Positions 5,782-13,782 are shown, counted from the first letter of the stretch. The stretch is DNA of 64,000 nt from Candidatus Methanoperedentaceae archaeon (GCA_003104905.1 PQAS01000050.1:62001-126000), one strand, 5' to 3'. Notes: a model not told the origin generated them from the letters alone. A program made the numbers and translations.

Positions 5782-6028
5782 ATAATTCTCCTGGAAATAA
5801 GAGTTCTGGCAAAAAACTCCTGTACCTCTGTCTATTCTGATTTTTCCCTAATGGATTTTTGCCGCGGGGTATAAAGCTGTTATTCAGCAAACTGGATAAA
5901 GAATCCCAGTTCTTTACTCCTTTTTTCCCGGCAAATCTTAGAACATGATTATAATAACTAATATTATAAGCATATTTCTAATATATTTTTGCCAATAATT
6001 ATTTAAGTATAATAGAAGAAGTATAGTT

Positions 6029-6211
6029 CGTAATCTCTAAAATATAGGGAATTACGACGGGATTATGCTGCACACATAGTGCATTCGGACAAGGTCAGAC
6101 GCTGAACCAGATGAATATAGGTGTGAGTAGAATACCGAATGATACTGATCCTGCAGATGCAGGGCAAATCACAAAAATGATACCGGGTGATAGTTGTGAA
6201 TCAATCGGTCC
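6029..6211 (+). promoter_or_regulatory. structured leader upstream of the tubulin-like operon
   Basis: The 450-bp gap from 5782 to 6231 holds no convincing gene, but its last 200 bases are rich in inverted repeats. Stem 1 is CGTAAT...ATTACG (6029-6056) with an inner 5-bp stem. Stem 2 is TGCAC/GTGCA (6069-6083). GGAC (6087) can close with GTCC (6208) around GGTCAG-ACG-CTGAACC, GGTGT/ATACC and CCTGCA-GA-TGCAGG (6150-6163). The array ends about 20 bases before the GGAG site of the first operon gene. It could be a cis-regulatory RNA, an sRNA or a set of operators. It matches no riboswitch class I know. Confidence 0.4.
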
Positions 6212-6231
6212 AGACGCAAAGGAGTAATAAA

Positions 6232-6993
6232 ATGGATAAAAATAAAATAGGATATGTTGTCGCTGCTATGATACTAGTAATTGTAATGGGTAATATATCC
6301 ACTGCGGCTACAGTAGAGTTAGTTAATCCTGGGGAACTGCCTGCGCAATTACCCGAAAATAAACCAGTAAATTTTACAATAAAAATCGAAAACTATGCAG
6401 CTGCAAAGAATGTTACAATTGACACAAGTTTGGTGATGGAAGGTAATAATCCAGTATATGATTTCGGAGATTTGAATCCTGCATTGAGTGAGTACAGGTA
6501 CAAGCAAACAATAACTCTTGATACGGCTCTGTTGCCATCTAAAGAGTTCAAGGTGACAATTTCAGGAAAAGCTCCGTTAGTCGAGACTGAAAGGATCAAA
6601 GACACCGACATTGTCATCACAAGATTTGGTGAGGAAAAAAAGAATTATTATGATGTTAGTGTGGATAATAAGTTTGTGACTAGCGATTCATTTGAACTCA
6701 TCATCAAAACAAAGGAGGAATTTACAGAAACTATCAAAAAAATATCCTGGAAAGAACTTGACGAACTCAAACAAGACCTTAATAAAATATTCGATAGTGG
6801 TTTAACTATGGAAGCGCAGAAAATGGCTGATGGGATGGTAAACATCAGAGCACCTGATAATCTTCTACTTTTTGGATTGATTAAAATAGAAAATAATCTC
6901 TGGCTAAATATTGCCGTTATAGTTTTTGCATTAATTGGTGGTATCATTGGCTTTAGATTTGGAAGAGATAAAGGAAGCAATCCTGATGATTAG
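6232..6993 (+). CDS. secreted membrane-anchored protein of the tubulin-like operon
   Basis: This 253-residue protein has an N-terminal signal segment (residues 7-25, ending STAA), an Ig/CARDB-like beta domain (about 28-125: VNFTIKIENYAAAKNVTID), a helical stretch (about 170-215) and one C-terminal membrane helix (about 226-245). The helix is followed by a short charged tail (FRFGRDKGSNPDD). The bulk is therefore predicted outside the cell with a tiny cytoplasmic tail. ATG 6232 is preceded by AAAGGAG; an upstream in-frame GTG at 6187 lacks such a site. It is the first gene of the operon, 22 bases before the tubulin-like gene. I do not recognise the family. It may link the cytoplasmic GTPases to the envelope. 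Confidence 0.75.
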   Translation: MDKNKIGYVVAAMILVIVMGNISTAATVELVNPGELPAQLPENKPVNFTIKIENYAAAKNVTIDTSLVMEGNNPVYDFGDLNPALSEYRYKQTITLDTALLPSKEFKVTISGKAPLVETERIKDTDIVITRFGEEKKNYYDVSVDNKFVTSDSFELIIKTKEEFTETIKKISWKELDELKQDLNKIFDSGLTMEAQKMADGMVNIRAPDNLLLFGLIKIENNLWLNIAVIVFALIGGIIGFRFGRDKGSNPDD

Positions 6994-7015
6994 ATCAAAA
7001 AAGGAGGAATAAGAA

Positions 7016-10000
7016 ATGAAATTTCCAAAATATATATTTGCAGTAGGTGGTGCTGGTAAAGATATTGTATATAATATGCTTGAGAAAGATTGGATTCTCA
7101 GGGATATCATCAAACCAAAAAATGGGCATACGGAAGTAAATATCACTATAATAGACACTGCACTGGATGAAGCAAATGAAAGAGGCCCGGAGGATGTCGG
7201 AGATATTATAAAAATAAAGCAATTCGAGAAGAAAATAAAGGATTTACAGAATGAATATCGCCAGAACATCGAAAGTGCCCAAATGAGCATAGGAACTATT
7301 GACATTAAATATGAATTGTTGACAAGCAGGATGGTTCTAAACACTCCACACGCTCTCATTGGAATGGGAGACACCATAAAAAGGTCAACTGGCACAGAGG
7401 TATGGTGGATGAACGATCCAAAACTCGATGACATAAATCTTGGACTATGGTCTGAAAGAGTTATGGATCACGAGAACCTAAGGCAGCAAAACTTTGCAAT
7501 GGGTGTTTACAGAAAAAGAGCCATCGCAAAAGCAATATATTATAAAGCGATAGCAGAAGGCCACTTCAGACCAAATATAGGCGACAATGAAGATGTTGCC
7601 ATCCTGGCTGGTCTTGGCGGTGGAACTGGCAGCGGTATGACAATAGACCTGGCAAAAAGACTTAAAGCCATACAGCCGATGTCAAATATTGTTTTGTTCG
7701 GATTGCTTTCAACTCTCAAAGAAAGTGGTGATGAAAAAGCAAATAGTTTCGCAATGCTAAGTGAACTGGAATACACCTGTGTGAACAAAGATAAGAATAT
7801 TTTCAAGAACATAATTCTCTGTCCAATTGAACAAACGCAGTGCAGGGGAAGACAGACAAGCAGGAATGAGGATAAGAAGCTTCTTGAAGAATATGACGAT
7901 GTGTTTCCACAAATGTTCATATCGTATTATAACAGAGGACAATCTGCACGTGATGTGTTTGATACGCTGCCCGGATATGCACCTTTTGTAATTGCAACGG
8001 CACAGCTTGTTCGCTACAACATCAATGAAATAAAGAAGTTCAGAGAGAATGTCATCGAAATTCTTCAGAAGAAACAGGCATCGATGATCGATGAAACTAA
8101 GATATACACTGATATTCAAAAGTTCATTGACGAATTCTACAGAGTTAATGACGGTGTGAAAGCGGCATTTTCAGATGAAGACAAGCTGCTAATTGAAAAT
8201 AGATTGTCCAAGTTCAAGAGCATACTGCAAAATGAGTTCTTCAGTAAACAACTTCAGTACAATAGTGTAATATTTCTAAACGATGCAATGCAGGCTGGAA
8301 TAAAACTCACCAAGACGAATAATGTTGACGACCAGATTCCAAACATAAATTCGCAGATAGAAGCGATTGCAATTCCAGCGTTTAAGGATACTGTAGACGA
8401 AACACTGTTTGAAGTCTTAAAAAAAGATGCTTTGATGATAAATGAATTGAGAATTACATTGTCATCTGTCAACAAGATTCAAGACATAGCAATAAGAAAT
8501 GCCCTTAAAGCTGTCATCACAAATGATAAAGGAAGTGTCGGAAGAGAGATAAATAATATTAAGAATGATGCTGAAGATCTAAAAACAGACAGAGCTACAG
8601 TTGAACAAGCACTTGAAGGTCTTTTGAATAAAATGGCAATTCTTGATAAGGACCTGAATGCAAGCATAGAAACTATGTTAAAAGAATGGAAAGAAAGAGA
8701 ATACAAGAATTTTGTGCTTCTATCATCCATTGATGAATTTAACATAGAGTTGAATAAGGACATCATTTATCTCAAGAGTGAACTGAAGGAATATGCTGAT
8801 AAGCTAAACAATACTTCTAAGCTTAGCGAACTCAAGAAACTTGACTTTGAAAAGTCTATAGAAAACATCGAAGAAGTTTTGGACAAAATATATAAAGAAC
8901 TTCTCAGCAAAATAGAGTTCAACTTTACCGACAAAGGCCTGATACGTGAGTGTCTGAGAAATCTTCTCGAATACAGGAAGAATTGCATCAAATATAAAAA
9001 AGGTGTTGGTTTTTTTGATAAATTGTTCAAAACCCGTGAAGGGGAGAATTACAAAAAGTTGAAAAGTGAGATCGAGAGTTTAGAGACAAGAATAAATCGT
9101 ACCGGTATATTCAAAGTCGAAAAAGGCTTAGCTGTAAATACATACAAAACAAATGTTGATACGATTGTACAGACAAAAAAGACAGAGACAGTCAAGTCAA
9201 TGATAGATGATATCAGAAACATGTTCCAATCGGCTTCAGATGAGACACTTTTACATATTAAAGACGTTCTACTTGACCCTGTAAGCAGAAAGGAAATGGA
9301 TCAGAATATTATCGCCCTTATTAAGGAACACAAAAACTATGCGGCAGAAAGCACTAAGATAAGATCAGAAATATCAGATACGCAAAAAAATCTGAATGCA
9401 ATTCTGGAAAGGCTGAAGATACTGGATTCACTTTCACCCAGATTGACGGCAATGCCAACGATTCTTGCGAGATATTCTGGTCTTCTTGATAAATATCACT
9501 CGTATGTCGAGAATATAAAAGACCATGCAGCTGCAATCTACGACCAACACAGAAAACCGATTTACGTTACGGATATACAGCCTTCAAACGTGCTTCAGTT
9601 CATGACATTGCAAAATGACATAAATGGTATGTTGAGGGACAACGGTGAGATCTCAAATCTGAAAACTAAATTAGAGCAGGGATTGTCTCGCACGATGGAC
9701 ACAAAATATAATGTGATGGTAAAGAACGACATCTCTTCAAGAGATGGACAACATAAATGGAGAAACATTAAAGCGGCAAATTCCATTGTCACAATAGCAA
9801 AAATTGTTGAGCCTTCTCTGATAGGTACAGAAATGCGTGTCAGAAGTTCATTCGGTCTGCAGGAAATAACAAGCTACTCAGATTGGGTATGCCAGGTAGG
9901 AGATCCATGGGAAATTGGAATAGTGATGTTTGTAGGCGGTGTACCTCTTGACAACATCGTTAATGTTGTTGATTCAGGTGAAGGATTCCGCACACATTAC

Positions 10001-10189
10001 CTGCGATCAGAGCCTAAGGTATTGTTCCATCACGCATACATGCTTGAAGAAGGAAAACTTGTCAAGAGAAAGAAGGTTCTGAATATTGAAGTTGAGAGCG
10101 ATAAGGCAACACTCTTACAGGATGATTCATCAGTTGGACAATGGTTTGCTCAAAACTATGACATCTTGGAGATTAAAAAATGCCTCTAA
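7016..10189 (+). CDS. giant tubulin/FtsZ-superfamily GTPase (tubulin-like, Tubulin_2/FtsZl-1 type)
   Basis: This 1057-residue cytoplasmic protein has an N-terminal tubulin-superfamily GTPase domain. The T1 loop is AVGGAGKD (residues 9-16), a T3-like IIDTALDEANE follows near 45, and the diagnostic T4 loop GGGTGSG is at residues 201-207. FtsZ has this loop near residue 105, so about 100 residues are inserted. LLSTLKESGDEKANSFAMLSELE follows, as in the Tubulin_2 family. Residues 340-870 are mostly charged helices and likely coiled coil. A distinct C-terminal domain (about 870-1057, WVCQVGDPWEIGIVMFVGGVP) follows. GGAGG precedes ATG 7016. The last 10 bases overlap the membrane GTPase gene, implying coupled synthesis. 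By family it should bind GTP and may form filaments; its cellular job is unknown. Confidence 0.85.
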   Translation: MKFPKYIFAVGGAGKDIVYNMLEKDWILRDIIKPKNGHTEVNITIIDTALDEANERGPEDVGDIIKIKQFEKKIKDLQNEYRQNIESAQMSIGTIDIKYELLTSRMVLNTPHALIGMGDTIKRSTGTEVWWMNDPKLDDINLGLWSERVMDHENLRQQNFAMGVYRKRAIAKAIYYKAIAEGHFRPNIGDNEDVAILAGLGGGTGSGMTIDLAKRLKAIQPMSNIVLFGLLSTLKESGDEKANSFAMLSELEYTCVNKDKNIFKNIILCPIEQTQCRGRQTSRNEDKKLLEEYDDVFPQMFISYYNRGQSARDVFDTLPGYAPFVIATAQLVRYNINEIKKFRENVIEILQKKQASMIDETKIYTDIQKFIDEFYRVNDGVKAAFSDEDKLLIENRLSKFKSILQNEFFSKQLQYNSVIFLNDAMQAGIKLTKTNNVDDQIPNINSQIEAIAIPAFKDTVDETLFEVLKKDALMINELRITLSSVNKIQDIAIRNALKAVITNDKGSVGREINNIKNDAEDLKTDRATVEQALEGLLNKMAILDKDLNASIETMLKEWKEREYKNFVLLSSIDEFNIELNKDIIYLKSELKEYADKLNNTSKLSELKKLDFEKSIENIEEVLDKIYKELLSKIEFNFTDKGLIRECLRNLLEYRKNCIKYKKGVGFFDKLFKTREGENYKKLKSEIESLETRINRTGIFKVEKGLAVNTYKTNVDTIVQTKKTETVKSMIDDIRNMFQSASDETLLHIKDVLLDPVSRKEMDQNIIALIKEHKNYAAESTKIRSEISDTQKNLNAILERLKILDSLSPRLTAMPTILARYSGLLDKYHSYVENIKDHAAAIYDQHRKPIYVTDIQPSNVLQFMTLQNDINGMLRDNGEISNLKTKLEQGLSRTMDTKYNVMVKNDISSRDGQHKWRNIKAANSIVTIAKIVEPSLIGTEMRVRSSFGLQEITSYSDWVCQVGDPWEIGIVMFVGGVPLDNIVNVVDSGEGFRTHYLRSEPKVLFHHAYMLEEGKLVKRKKVLNIEVESDKATLLQDDSSVGQWFAQNYDILEIKKCL

Positions 10190-11613
10190 ATGAAGAAGAC
10201 AATAAGAACGAGTATAAAAAAATATTGACAGATGCAGATACAATTCTATTCTGCATCTTTCTTGTTGTAATAGTTATACTGACTCCATTTGTAATGGACA
10301 TGGTTTCAAGATCCTGGAAAACTGAATTGATGGGACAGATTAAAGAAGCTATAGAGTCCATAGATTCGTCAAGTATTTCGATTTTTATATCTGTTACAAT
10401 AGGATTTTACGTTGGTTCTTTATTACTGTTAGGATTGGATAAATATAAAAAAGTGCAGGCAGTCATAATATCCATAGGTCTTATTTTGACCATCAAATAC
10501 TTGATCGACAATTATGCAACTGATTGGAATATTTATGCATTCCTAATTGGAGCTGGAGTAGGTATTGCACTTGGATCGATTAACAACAGCAAGCCAAAAG
10601 GAGATTATGAACGAGCAGCTAAGAACATAGTAATGGTCTCTACCGGATATCTTGTTATCACATACATAATTCTCTATGCTTCATTGAATGTTGAAAGTGG
10701 CAAGTTCCTTATTGATAGTGGGTCTGTACTTGGATTCTCTGCGTTAATGACCAATTTATTATTATACAAAGGAAAAGGTCCGAGAGTATTTGTAATAGGA
10801 CCGGCGAAATCCGGTAAGACCGTATTTTTAGTCGGATGTTACATTCAACTCGTGAAATTATCACAGGATCAGCCAATCAATCCGAGTAAATCCCTATACA
10901 ATGCTTATAACGAACTAAAGGGAAGTACAAAAACTCAATCTGAAATAGAAGCACAACATTTAGCTGAAAGAAATTTGGTTGATCCGAAAATAAATCCATC
11001 ATGGATTGAAAGAACTGAAGATACAGTGGAATATAGTTTTACTTATGTAATAGGAAAATTGTTTCCAAAAGAAGTAACTGTGAGGTCAGTCGATTTTCCA
11101 GGTTCTTACATAGTAAATATACCAGATTATATGTTTGCTAAACGCACAATTGAAAAGGGAGAAGAGGAATATGTTAAGACAGCCAAATATGTTGAAGAAT
11201 CTGACAAATTGATACTTGTAATAGATAGCAATAACTTTCCTAATTATTCCGAGGAAATTGGTCAATACATAGCAGTCGCAAGACAAATGCGTGAAAATAG
11301 GAAGAATGTCAAATATTATATAGTGATCACAAAGAGTGATATATTCATAGATGATTTTAAGAAAAACAAAGGATATGAACAGTTTTATTCATTTGGCAAC
11401 AAAGATTATGATAACTTTAGAAGTTTCATGACAGAAAAATTCTCAAAAAATGGAGATATTATGACTTTGCTGCCTGAGATCTATGGTGCGCCGATGTATC
11501 CAGTATTCTATGAAACAGAAAAATATCACGGCGCAAGATTGCCCTTGATAAATGATAACGGAAATGTGTATGTGTGTGGATTCAGCGAATTCATGAAAGA
11601 TTTATTCGAATAA
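10180..11613 (+). CDS. multi-pass membrane protein with C-terminal GTPase domain
   Basis: This is a 477-residue protein. Residues 22-195 hold about six membrane helices. The cytoplasmic remainder is a P-loop GTPase: G1 GPAKSGKT (207-214), G3 DFPGS (from Asp305), G4 TKSD (384-387). Hydrophobic beta strands precede each motif (RVFVIG, LILVIDS, KYYIVI). The layout resembles SRP-receptor-beta or dynamin-like membrane GTPases, but I cannot place it in either. It begins inside the last codons of the tubulin-like gene (10-nt overlap), so the two GTPases are probably made together and may interact. A distinct GTPase next to a tubulin-like protein was the hallmark of the FtsZl-1 systems predicted to remodel membranes. 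Confidence 0.85.
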   Translation: MPLNEEDNKNEYKKILTDADTILFCIFLVVIVILTPFVMDMVSRSWKTELMGQIKEAIESIDSSSISIFISVTIGFYVGSLLLLGLDKYKKVQAVIISIGLILTIKYLIDNYATDWNIYAFLIGAGVGIALGSINNSKPKGDYERAAKNIVMVSTGYLVITYIILYASLNVESGKFLIDSGSVLGFSALMTNLLLYKGKGPRVFVIGPAKSGKTVFLVGCYIQLVKLSQDQPINPSKSLYNAYNELKGSTKTQSEIEAQHLAERNLVDPKINPSWIERTEDTVEYSFTYVIGKLFPKEVTVRSVDFPGSYIVNIPDYMFAKRTIEKGEEEYVKTAKYVEESDKLILVIDSNNFPNYSEEIGQYIAVARQMRENRKNVKYYIVITKSDIFIDDFKKNKGYEQFYSFGNKDYDNFRSFMTEKFSKNGDIMTLLPEIYGAPMYPVFYETEKYHGARLPLINDNGNVYVCGFSEFMKDLFE

Positions 11614-11666
11614 CTTATCTGAAAATTGAAATCAAAAACTAAAGAAAAGTAGAAACTGAGGACAAA

Positions 11667-12902
11667 ATGTCAAATTTTGAGATATATGATGATCAACACG
11701 GAAAAATGATACATCCAGTCATTGGAACTACAATAAATGAGAAGATGAAATCTTTTTTCATTAAAAAGATTCGTCTTTATATTGAAAAGGCAGAAAATGG
11801 CCAACTGAACATAATATGCAACATAAGCGCGCATGAAAAGATGGAGAGAATAGAAGGGTATTATCTGTCATATAGAGATACTTACACCGAAAATTCATTT
11901 ACAAAATTCAAGAAAGATTCTGAACGTTCACTGACAAGTCTTGGATTTCACCTGAAAAGTGGATTACCTGCAGATAATATAATTTTCAATAATATTGAGA
12001 AATTTGATTTGGGGGTGACAATTTATGACAAAAAAATACCAGAAGATTATTTACCAATAATTCAGGCGCTGAATGATGGAAATGTGTTGACATTTAAGGG
12101 AGGAAGAATTGATGACATCGCAGATTTTTGTAGGATTATTTTGCAAAATACAAAAGCTGTAAAGATAGTTCTCTCATCAAGAGAAGAGAAATCTGAGGAA
12201 GGGGACATTGACATATTCCTGGACAAGAAATTTGAGGAAAATATCGCAAAAACAATAGAAACTGAAAAGATACTACAACAAAAGCACAGAGAAATGGAAG
12301 AGGAAAGAGCTAGAGAAGAAAATGAAAAAAGAAATAGTCTCATAGATAAAGAACGGATAAATATAGAAAGTTCTATCATTCCAGTAAAAGAATGCCTCGA
12401 ACACCTGAAAGATATAGGATGCGATATATCATACGCCAAAAAAGATTTATCGAGATTTGAAAAAGATATTATAATGATCAAGTATGATCCGTTTTATGCA
12501 TCAAAACGAGAAAAAGGAAGAGAAAAGAGCTATGAAGAAAAAAGAGAAGAAAGTCTGAAAAAATACGAAGGTCAAGGTAACTCCGAAAAAAGACCACAAA
12601 CTCAATACAATCCACAGAATTATGATAATCTATTTGTTGATAATCCTTTCAGAGATATTTTGAAAATTATTGCTATCATTGTGTCAGTAGCTGCAATATT
12701 AGCAGTAATAGTGTTTTTGATCATGCCTCAATTTGAGCAAAAAAATTTCGAAAATGACACTGCCAAAGATCCAGGGAAGGGAGTTACGGGATTGAATTCG
12801 AGTACAGATGCAAGTAATATATCAAAAACAGACCCACAAATAAAAGTCAGTGCAAATACGACACCAACGATGACAAAAAAATCCGAATCAATGAAAAGCT
12901 GA
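11667..12902 (+). CDS. coiled-coil protein with single C-terminal membrane anchor, tubulin-like operon
   Basis: This is a 411-residue protein of unknown family. Residues 1-180 form a mixed alpha/beta domain. Residues 184-233 are a highly charged coiled coil (EEERAREENEKRN). Residues 285-325 are a low-complexity Lys/Glu/Gln linker, 330-353 a single membrane helix, and 355-411 a Ser/Thr/Asn-rich tail expected outside the cell. The gene lies 53 bases after the GTPase gene, with GAGGA before ATG 11667. A cytoplasmic head plus coiled coil plus anchor is a reasonable shape for a receptor or tether of the tubulin-like polymer, but that role is inference. Confidence 0.75.
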   Translation: MSNFEIYDDQHGKMIHPVIGTTINEKMKSFFIKKIRLYIEKAENGQLNIICNISAHEKMERIEGYYLSYRDTYTENSFTKFKKDSERSLTSLGFHLKSGLPADNIIFNNIEKFDLGVTIYDKKIPEDYLPIIQALNDGNVLTFKGGRIDDIADFCRIILQNTKAVKIVLSSREEKSEEGDIDIFLDKKFEENIAKTIETEKILQQKHREMEEERAREENEKRNSLIDKERINIESSIIPVKECLEHLKDIGCDISYAKKDLSRFEKDIIMIKYDPFYASKREKGREKSYEEKREESLKKYEGQGNSEKRPQTQYNPQNYDNLFVDNPFRDILKIIAIIVSVAAILAVIVFLIMPQFEQKNFENDTAKDPGKGVTGLNSSTDASNISKTDPQIKVSANTTPTMTKKSESMKS

Positions 12903-12924
12903 AATCGATAAGGGTGAAGTGAAT

Positions 12925-13536
12925 ATGAAGTGGAAACTCCCAGAGAACGCGGATTCAATAAATGTTATTTTCAGCATTTTAATGATCGAATATGTAATCA
13001 TCTTTATATTGTTCAGTTTTATTGTCCTGCCAGTGAAAGCTGAAACCGGGTCAACTACATATACTACATATATGGACAGCAAATTCGGATTCTACAAAGT
13101 GCGAGATATTACGTCAAACAGTATATTTTCATACGACGAACATACTCTGACAATCAACCAGGGTGACACTATGATCTGGAAAAACGATGACGATAGGGAT
13201 AAAGCCATCAGTATAGTCAGCGATGAAAAGTTGTGGAGTGATAATATTGGACATCTGGGAAGATATAATGCAGAATTCAAATATACATTTACAGCACCTG
13301 GTGAATATACATTCCGAATATCACAATTTCAAGGGCAGCAGATAATCATTGTAAGATCATCACCTCAAACTTTTACTCCTGTACCGACAAATCCAGTTCC
13401 GACTACGTATCCAGCTATAACGCAAACACCCACTTCTGGGACAGGGCTGCCTGATATTCCAATAAAGATAACACCAATTACAATGTTAAGTGCATTGATA
13501 TCGCTGATCGCAATGCATATAACAACTAAGCAATAG
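12925..13536 (+). CDS. membrane-anchored cupredoxin-like protein, tubulin-like operon
   Basis: This is a 203-residue protein. A hydrophobic segment (about 14-37) serves as signal or anchor. A plastocyanin-like beta domain follows (about 45-145: LTINQGDTMIWKNDDDRDKAISIVSDEKLW ... FTAPGEYTFRI, quoted in parts), then a Pro/Thr-rich linker (TPVPTNPVPTTYP) and a second helix at the C-terminus (about 180-198). The Cys and Met copper ligands expected near the end of a blue-copper domain are missing, so the fold may be structural only. GTG 12919 is possible, but GGTGA seven bases before ATG 12925 decides the start. It is the last operon gene, 22 bases after the coiled-coil gene. Confidence 0.7.
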   Translation: MKWKLPENADSINVIFSILMIEYVIIFILFSFIVLPVKAETGSTTYTTYMDSKFGFYKVRDITSNSIFSYDEHTLTINQGDTMIWKNDDDRDKAISIVSDEKLWSDNIGHLGRYNAEFKYTFTAPGEYTFRISQFQGQQIIIVRSSPQTFTPVPTNPVPTTYPAITQTPTSGTGLPDIPIKITPITMLSALISLIAMHITTKQ

Positions 13537-13631
13537 ATCGAGGAGCAATGTTGCGGTTTCCTGCCCTACTCTTGGGAACACCTGAGAAAATTTAGTGCTG
13601 TGGATAATTGAAGAATTAATTATATATTGAT

Positions 13632-13715
13632 GCGGAGGATGGGATTTGAACCCACGAATTCCTTCGAAACCAGCCCCTCAAGCTGGCGCCTTTGACCTGT
13701 CTGGGCAACCTCCGC
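13632..13715 (-). tRNA. tRNA-Leu (GAG)
   Basis: Read on the minus strand, the acceptor arms GCGGAGG and CCTCCGC pair, and the T arm holds GGTTCAAATCC. The anticodon stem CCAGC/GCTGG encloses TTGAGGG, giving anticodon GAG. The long variable arm (TTCGAAGGAATTC region) is class II, as expected for leucine. CCA is not encoded and there is no intron. Confidence 0.93.
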
Positions 13716-13782
13716 AAATGAATGCTTTGATTTCAAAGCATTATGAAATATTCATATAATAAAAGAGAACGTTTCTCTTCTA

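Follow-up and report, generated by a model that had tools for sequence, protein, structure and literature searches.

A giant tubulin-like GTPase and a membrane GTPase in an acquired five-gene block beside tRNA-Leu of a Candidatus Methanoperedentaceae archaeon

Genes and features of the block

The window, by which we mean the whole 64,000-nucleotide stretch of Candidatus Methanoperedentaceae DNA analysed here, contains five genes, g1 to g5, in an operon-like row at 6232-13536 (Table 1). The spacings between them are 22, -10, 53 and 16 bp, and Shine-Dalgarno-like sequences precede g1 and g2. The initial annotation described five tightly spaced genes and a 10-base overlap between the GTPase gene and the tubulin-like gene; all the reading frames and the overlap of g2 and g3 are found as it described them. 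The genes are real and, since their order is kept in about 30 other archaeal loci, the five-gene block is far above what chance would give. Upstream, from the left junction of the island to g1 (5791-6231), there are 440 bp without a clear gene, and the stretch directly 5' of g1 resembles the tail of a truncated ORF.

Table 1. Positions of the genes and other features in the window, and sites of an in-frame segment elsewhere in the same genome
Feature	Position	Strand	Description
g1	6232-6993	+	253 aa; in-frame GTG start further upstream at 6187
g2	7016-10189	+	1057 aa; FtsZl1/Tubulin_2 giant tubulin-like GTPase
g3	10180-11613	+	477 aa; predicted polytopic membrane TRAFAC-type GTPase, DO-GTPase2-like
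g4	11667-12902	+	411 aa; predicted cytoplasmic N-terminal alpha/beta domain, helical linker, one TM helix, short outside tail
g5	12919-13536	+	205 aa; cupredoxin-like ectodomain, C-terminal TM helix (predicted)
Acquired island with g1-g5	5791-13623		7.8 kb; BLAST against sister species G004, GC contrast
tRNA-Leu (gag)	13629-13716	-	ARAGORN, run on the window and L090
SWDDVPGNDSGRLKEFL segment sites in the window's genome (G000)	C55:80370, C29:18687, C53:99228, C59:23818, C2:91798		

Against Pfam, g2 reaches 33.4 bits for Tubulin_2 (PF13809), over the cut-off of 27, and it carries a GGGTGSG loop at residue 201. Its match to PF00091 lies under the cut-off of that family, and no FtsZ_C or Tubulin_C domain is recognisable by Pfam. 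An AlphaFold2 model with 27 homologues as input has a mean pLDDT of 85.7. When this model is compared with the PDB by Foldseek the top matches are Odinarchaeota tubulin, TubZ, FtsZ, BtubA and gamma-tubulin, and all but one of the 50 matches listed belong to the tubulin superfamily, with E-values down to 1.3e-4. The alignments have about 340-370 columns at roughly 9-15% identity, and the target-normalised TM-scores are only 0.3-0.47, indicating that the match covers part of the tubulin unit. At the sequence level, too, the family profile of g2 retrieves FtsZ and TubZ, with E about 1e-5.

In the model the N-terminal tubulin fold is followed by a long helical or coiled-coil middle, with one long helix at 505-598, and then by a C-terminal alpha/beta domain. 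This last domain is conserved, with invariant W965, D979, N980, G990, Y995, G1013 and R1018. The layout fits the FtsZl1 architecture of about 1000 residues: as in FtsZl1, there are about 1050 residues with an N-terminal FtsZ-like domain containing GGGTGSG, a coiled-coil middle and a C-terminal domain. We conclude that g2 belongs to the FtsZl1/Tubulin_2 family. It shares the tubulin-type GTPase fold with TubZ, FtsZ and Odin tubulin in its first 340-370 residues or so, but unlike these it has long extra regions and membrane partners in its operon. The earlier reading of g2 as a tubulin-superfamily protein of 1057 residues, with the fold near its N-terminus and a kinship to the FtsZl1 family of Makarova and Koonin (2010), thus agrees with the Pfam score, with the predicted structure and with the tubulin-type proteins that are its best PDB matches.

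The second GTPase, g3, scores 25.6 bits against DO-GTPase2 (PF19993), just under the cut-off of 27. GPAKSGKT is found at residue 207 and TKSD at residue 384, and 16 homologues show no change in the residues of the G1 (GPxxSGKT), G3 (DxxG) and G4 (TKxD) motifs. Compared with canonical archaeal DO-GTPases, hhalign gives 86.6% over 95 columns, on the G4 side only. Judged by its motifs, g3 is predicted to be an intact membrane GTPase. Of the six-helix membrane GTPase in the initial annotation the GTPase motifs and the membrane association hold; a simple hydropathy scan gives five helices here, and close relatives have as many as six.

The other three proteins all have hydrophobic or transmembrane segments in the same scan, as expected if they are membrane-anchored; for all five proteins the topology is a prediction of this kind. 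For g1 the predicted parts are an N-terminal signal-peptide-like segment, an extracellular domain of about 200 residues, a C-terminal transmembrane helix and a short cytoplasmic tail. It has no Pfam match over cut-off and no recognised relative of known structure. Still, it is a conserved family, whose members lie immediately upstream of g2 in Methanosarcinales and in Methanomicrobiales.

In g4 a single transmembrane helix is predicted near residues 334-352. The N-domain (about residues 1-195) is modelled by AlphaFold2 with pLDDT mostly 80-96 and has the order b-b-a-b-b-b-a, which we read, as a hint only, as the order of longin domains. About 10 of the 50 PDB matches listed by Foldseek are longin-containing GTPase regulators (GATOR1, FLCN, Lst4), none of them significant; no match to the PDB reached an E-value of 0.001. 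The outside tail is short here and has N-glycosylation-type sequons, elsewhere it is long and sequon-rich or Ig-like. In relative loci the g4 homologues come after g3. A GAP1 identity for g4 was considered and ruled out, as there is no Pfam GAP1 match and hhalign gives a probability of 0.1.

The fifth protein, g5, has hydrophobic segments at both ends and consists of a signal-peptide-like segment, a cupredoxin-like ectodomain, a Thr/Pro-rich stalk and a C-terminal transmembrane helix. Its profile matches the plastocyanin 1bxu (E=2.7e-4). As g5 has no Cys, binding of type 1 copper is improbable. Iteration of the profile brought in unrelated surface and repeat proteins, and only direct matches were kept; these are found in L023, L024 and L026, so far only in cassettes of the window's genus.

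Neither a MIDAS (DxSxS) motif nor a vWA or OmpA domain is found in the five proteins by Pfam and a motif check, in line with the initial annotation. A vWA identity for g1, g4 or g5 is ruled out, as they have neither the domain nor the motif.

Insertion site and mobility

In the sister species G004 the genes dcd and tRNA-Leu are adjacent, and BLAST finds 17 bp where the window has 7,833 bp. The flanks are 94% and 90% identical between the two genomes, and the neighbouring RNA polymerase subunit is 97% identical as a protein. The block is also missing between dcd and tRNA-Leu in three further genomes (G001, G006 and G022). The GC of the island is 32-39%, compared with 43-46% in the flanks, and its right junction lies about 5 bp from the 3' end of the tRNA gene. 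This genome acquired the block as an AT-rich insertion beside tRNA-Leu, and this insertion, with the empty site in the sister species, is what is new here.

Of the 30 other genomes in the genus only 3 have a full-length g2-type protein. The tree places the window protein away from these copies, though on a long branch. Relatives are also plasmid-borne in Methanohalobium, Halorubrum, Haloplanus and a Natrialbaceae archaeon. Taken together the empty site, the AT-rich island and the plasmid copies indicate that the block is mobile. At the island neither a second copy of the tRNA 3' end nor a clear repeat at the flanks was found that could be an att site, and the block contains no integrase; IMG/VR holds no relatives that would indicate viral carriage. 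Further, adjacency to a tRNA is not a general rule: any tRNA is seen in 2 of the 31 relative loci scanned, about 2 kb past the block end in L025 and about 0.1 kb past it in L033.

Conservation in archaea and comparison with described systems

The order g1-g2-g3-g4 is kept in genomes of the window's genus, which we take to be Ca. Methanoperedens, in Methanosarcinaceae and in genomes of Methanomicrobiales type, and g2-g3-g4 reaches haloarchaea and archaeal plasmids. The genome of L077, which we take to be Methanosarcina acetivorans C2A, carries all four core genes. The alignment of FtsZl1 proteins in Makarova and Koonin 2010 (PMC2875224) also includes M. acetivorans. Relatives of g2 were counted only at E <1e-50, which gives 48 of 394 genomes; many matches at E about 1e-7 are ordinary FtsZ aligned over the GGGTG loop and were left out. 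Most relative cassettes have intergenic overlaps of at least 4 bp. In 19 cassettes the g1-g2, g2-g3 and g3-g4 distances correlate at r = 0.92-0.98, and gene distances more generally at r = 0.87-0.98. Transfer of the genes as one unit would give such correlations, but shared descent alone may also do so.

The proposal that all five genes stay together in related genomes applies to the first four, as the fifth, surface gene is found in some lineages only. In methanogen genomes of Methanomicrobiales (L111-L115 and L118) the fifth slot holds a protein with four PEGA domains. In Halorientalis (L032, 225-2432) the gene directly upstream of the tubulin gene encodes a transmembrane protein kinase whose ectodomain is of the periplasmic-binding, ANF-receptor-like type, a possible receptor for the system; a kinase also precedes the block in L109.

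These features can be compared with the FtsZl1 operons described in 2010 (PMC2875224). In that description membrane association sets the GTPases of archaeal operons apart from those of bacteria, and many of the other genes encode lineage-specific transmembrane proteins. A vWA gene is found in most operons but not in all, and an OmpA-family gene in several genomes only. The window block likewise has a distinct P-loop GTPase, membrane-bound in archaea, and several transmembrane partners. It differs in having no vWA, OmpA or kinase genes, and in having a cupredoxin-like fifth protein and a tRNA-adjacent insertion site. OmpA is not expected in the block, as there is no outer membrane. The block is an ordinary archaeal form of the system described in 2010, and the four-gene core is standard in methanogens. 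The suggestion in the initial annotation of a new archaeal variant with its own envelope components is therefore not upheld: the membrane GTPase and the lineage-specific transmembrane partners were already part of the 2010 description.

Makarova and Koonin proposed that FtsZl1 is a membrane-remodelling system (PMC2875224), and the block could accordingly be a general membrane-remodelling or vesicle-forming machine. It has a protein of the same family, a membrane GTPase and several transmembrane proteins, and there is no clear enrichment of defence genes nearby. However, most genomes of the genus lack it and it was gained on an island, which argues against a general housekeeping role, and the vWA and OmpA components are absent. 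We regard this possibility as unlikely.

A second comparison is with the DO-GTPase systems of Kaur et al. 2020 (PMC7159879), which occur with tubulins, HSP70 and vWA and of which the bacterial ones were proposed to be conflict systems. As in the DO-GTPase/GAP1/tubulin/HSP70 systems, a TRAFAC GTPase probably related to DO-GTPase2 here stands beside a coiled-coil-fused tubulin-domain protein, and extracellular modules occur in the neighbourhood. The block differs from them in lacking GAP1, HSP70, vWA and FNIII, and in having a single GTPase with several transmembrane helices. On a Halorubrum plasmid, p117 (L107, 14-12837), Hsp70 and vWA genes do lie beside a tubulin-like gene, a membrane GTPase gene and a further transmembrane gene in the g4 position; they are on the opposite strand to the block, beyond a transposase. 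This locus touches both published descriptions, the FtsZl1 operon and the DO-GTPase system.

By analogy with the bacterial systems the block could act against invaders, with g3 as a switch, g2 as the effector assembly and the surface proteins sensing attack. Such a conflict role would fit the published systems, the Hsp70 and vWA genes on the haloarchaeal plasmid, the patchy and mobile distribution, and one relative that adjoins a caspase-FGE protein. However, g4 is not GAP1, and canonical GAP1-N2 is rare, occurring in 3 of 295 genomes of the phylum. PADLOC gives no match for the five proteins, and the block contains no nuclease or other toxic effector. Nor do 16 cassette neighbourhoods bear out a location in defence islands: their PADLOC hits show no clear excess over matched regions about 60 kb away, in a coarse comparison of two sets of 129 and 114 proteins. 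A role in conflict thus appears rather improbable.

Proposed role and further observations

The reading that we prefer, to which we give about an even chance, is a mobile, membrane-anchored and GTP-driven scaffold, in which a cytoplasmic tubulin-like assembly would be linked to the cell surface. It is preferred over a conflict role because g4 is not GAP1, GAP1-N2 is rare, PADLOC gives neither a match nor a clear excess, and the surface modules are exchangeable. An envelope-facing role is favoured by these modules, which differ by lineage: cupredoxin, PEGA, sequon-rich or Ig-like g4 tails, and a receptor kinase. In such a scaffold g2 would bind GTP and assemble on the cytoplasmic face of the membrane, with g3 as its GTP-controlled membrane anchor or switch. 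The cytoplasmic alpha/beta domain and single transmembrane helix of g4 could then bridge g2 and g3, and the outside parts of g1, g4 and g5 may hold the S-layer side or sense it. As a whole the scaffold would shape or stabilise the envelope under particular conditions, and be accessory rather than essential.

A more specific form is a trans-envelope tether, where a tubulin-like polymer is coupled through g3 and a longin-like g4 to exchangeable modules on the S-layer side. Spread on islands and plasmids, it would be a design counterpart of the linkers that join the eukaryotic cytoskeleton to the cell surface. We consider this version doubtful.

Assembly itself can be questioned. The T6-H7 elements, which contribute to FtsZ-type polymers, are not identifiable in the FtsZl1 family according to Makarova and Koonin (PMC2875224), and g2 may therefore not polymerise. 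The complex might then be a non-polymerising, GTP-dependent one for signalling or transport, with the tubulin fold as a nucleotide switch only. A reviewer of the 2010 paper favoured transport or signalling, and the strand-helix order of the g4 N-domain is that of longin-type GTPase regulators, with the weak matches mentioned above. On the other hand, the authors replied that all characterised tubulin and FtsZ proteins assemble (PMC2875224), and the long helical middle of g2 suggests assembly, so that we find a pure switch very improbable.

FtsZl1 proteins were predicted in 2010 and are still without an experimental function in the literature searched, where no filament, localisation or phenotype is reported for the archaeal members. 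Here the archaeal form is defined: a four-gene core in fixed order, a variable outside-facing slot, and movement on islands and plasmids. The relatives in Methanosarcina, a genetic model archaeon, make the role of a tubulin-like GTPase at the archaeal envelope tractable.

Other members of the family occur in different settings. In L071 (6016-11588) a lone tubulin-like protein of the family, without a membrane GTPase, follows a caspase and FGE-sulfatase protein, a neighbour close to effector types given in Kaur et al. 2020 (PMC7159879). Methanosarcinales, the order to which the window's genome belongs, also have a second arrangement: in L080 and L081 (about 5.5-14.5 kb) tubulin-like proteins of about 875 and 405 residues are close together, along with several small membrane proteins. 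In the window's own genome, of 2.9 Mb, another eight genes of the FtsZ/tubulin family score over the Pfam cut-off (L001-L008).

Finally, an in-frame segment of about 88 residues, beginning SWDDVPGNDSGRLKEFL, occurs within three proteins of L030 (4657-9886; G025:C186), the tubulin-like one, the GTPase and the g4-like one, and in many other proteins. In the GTPase of this locus it interrupts the GTPase domain. The segment has no Pfam match. There are 5 matches in the window's genome (Table 1), 15 in G021, 9 in G025 and 3 in G005, and it resembles an insertion element that spreads in frame.
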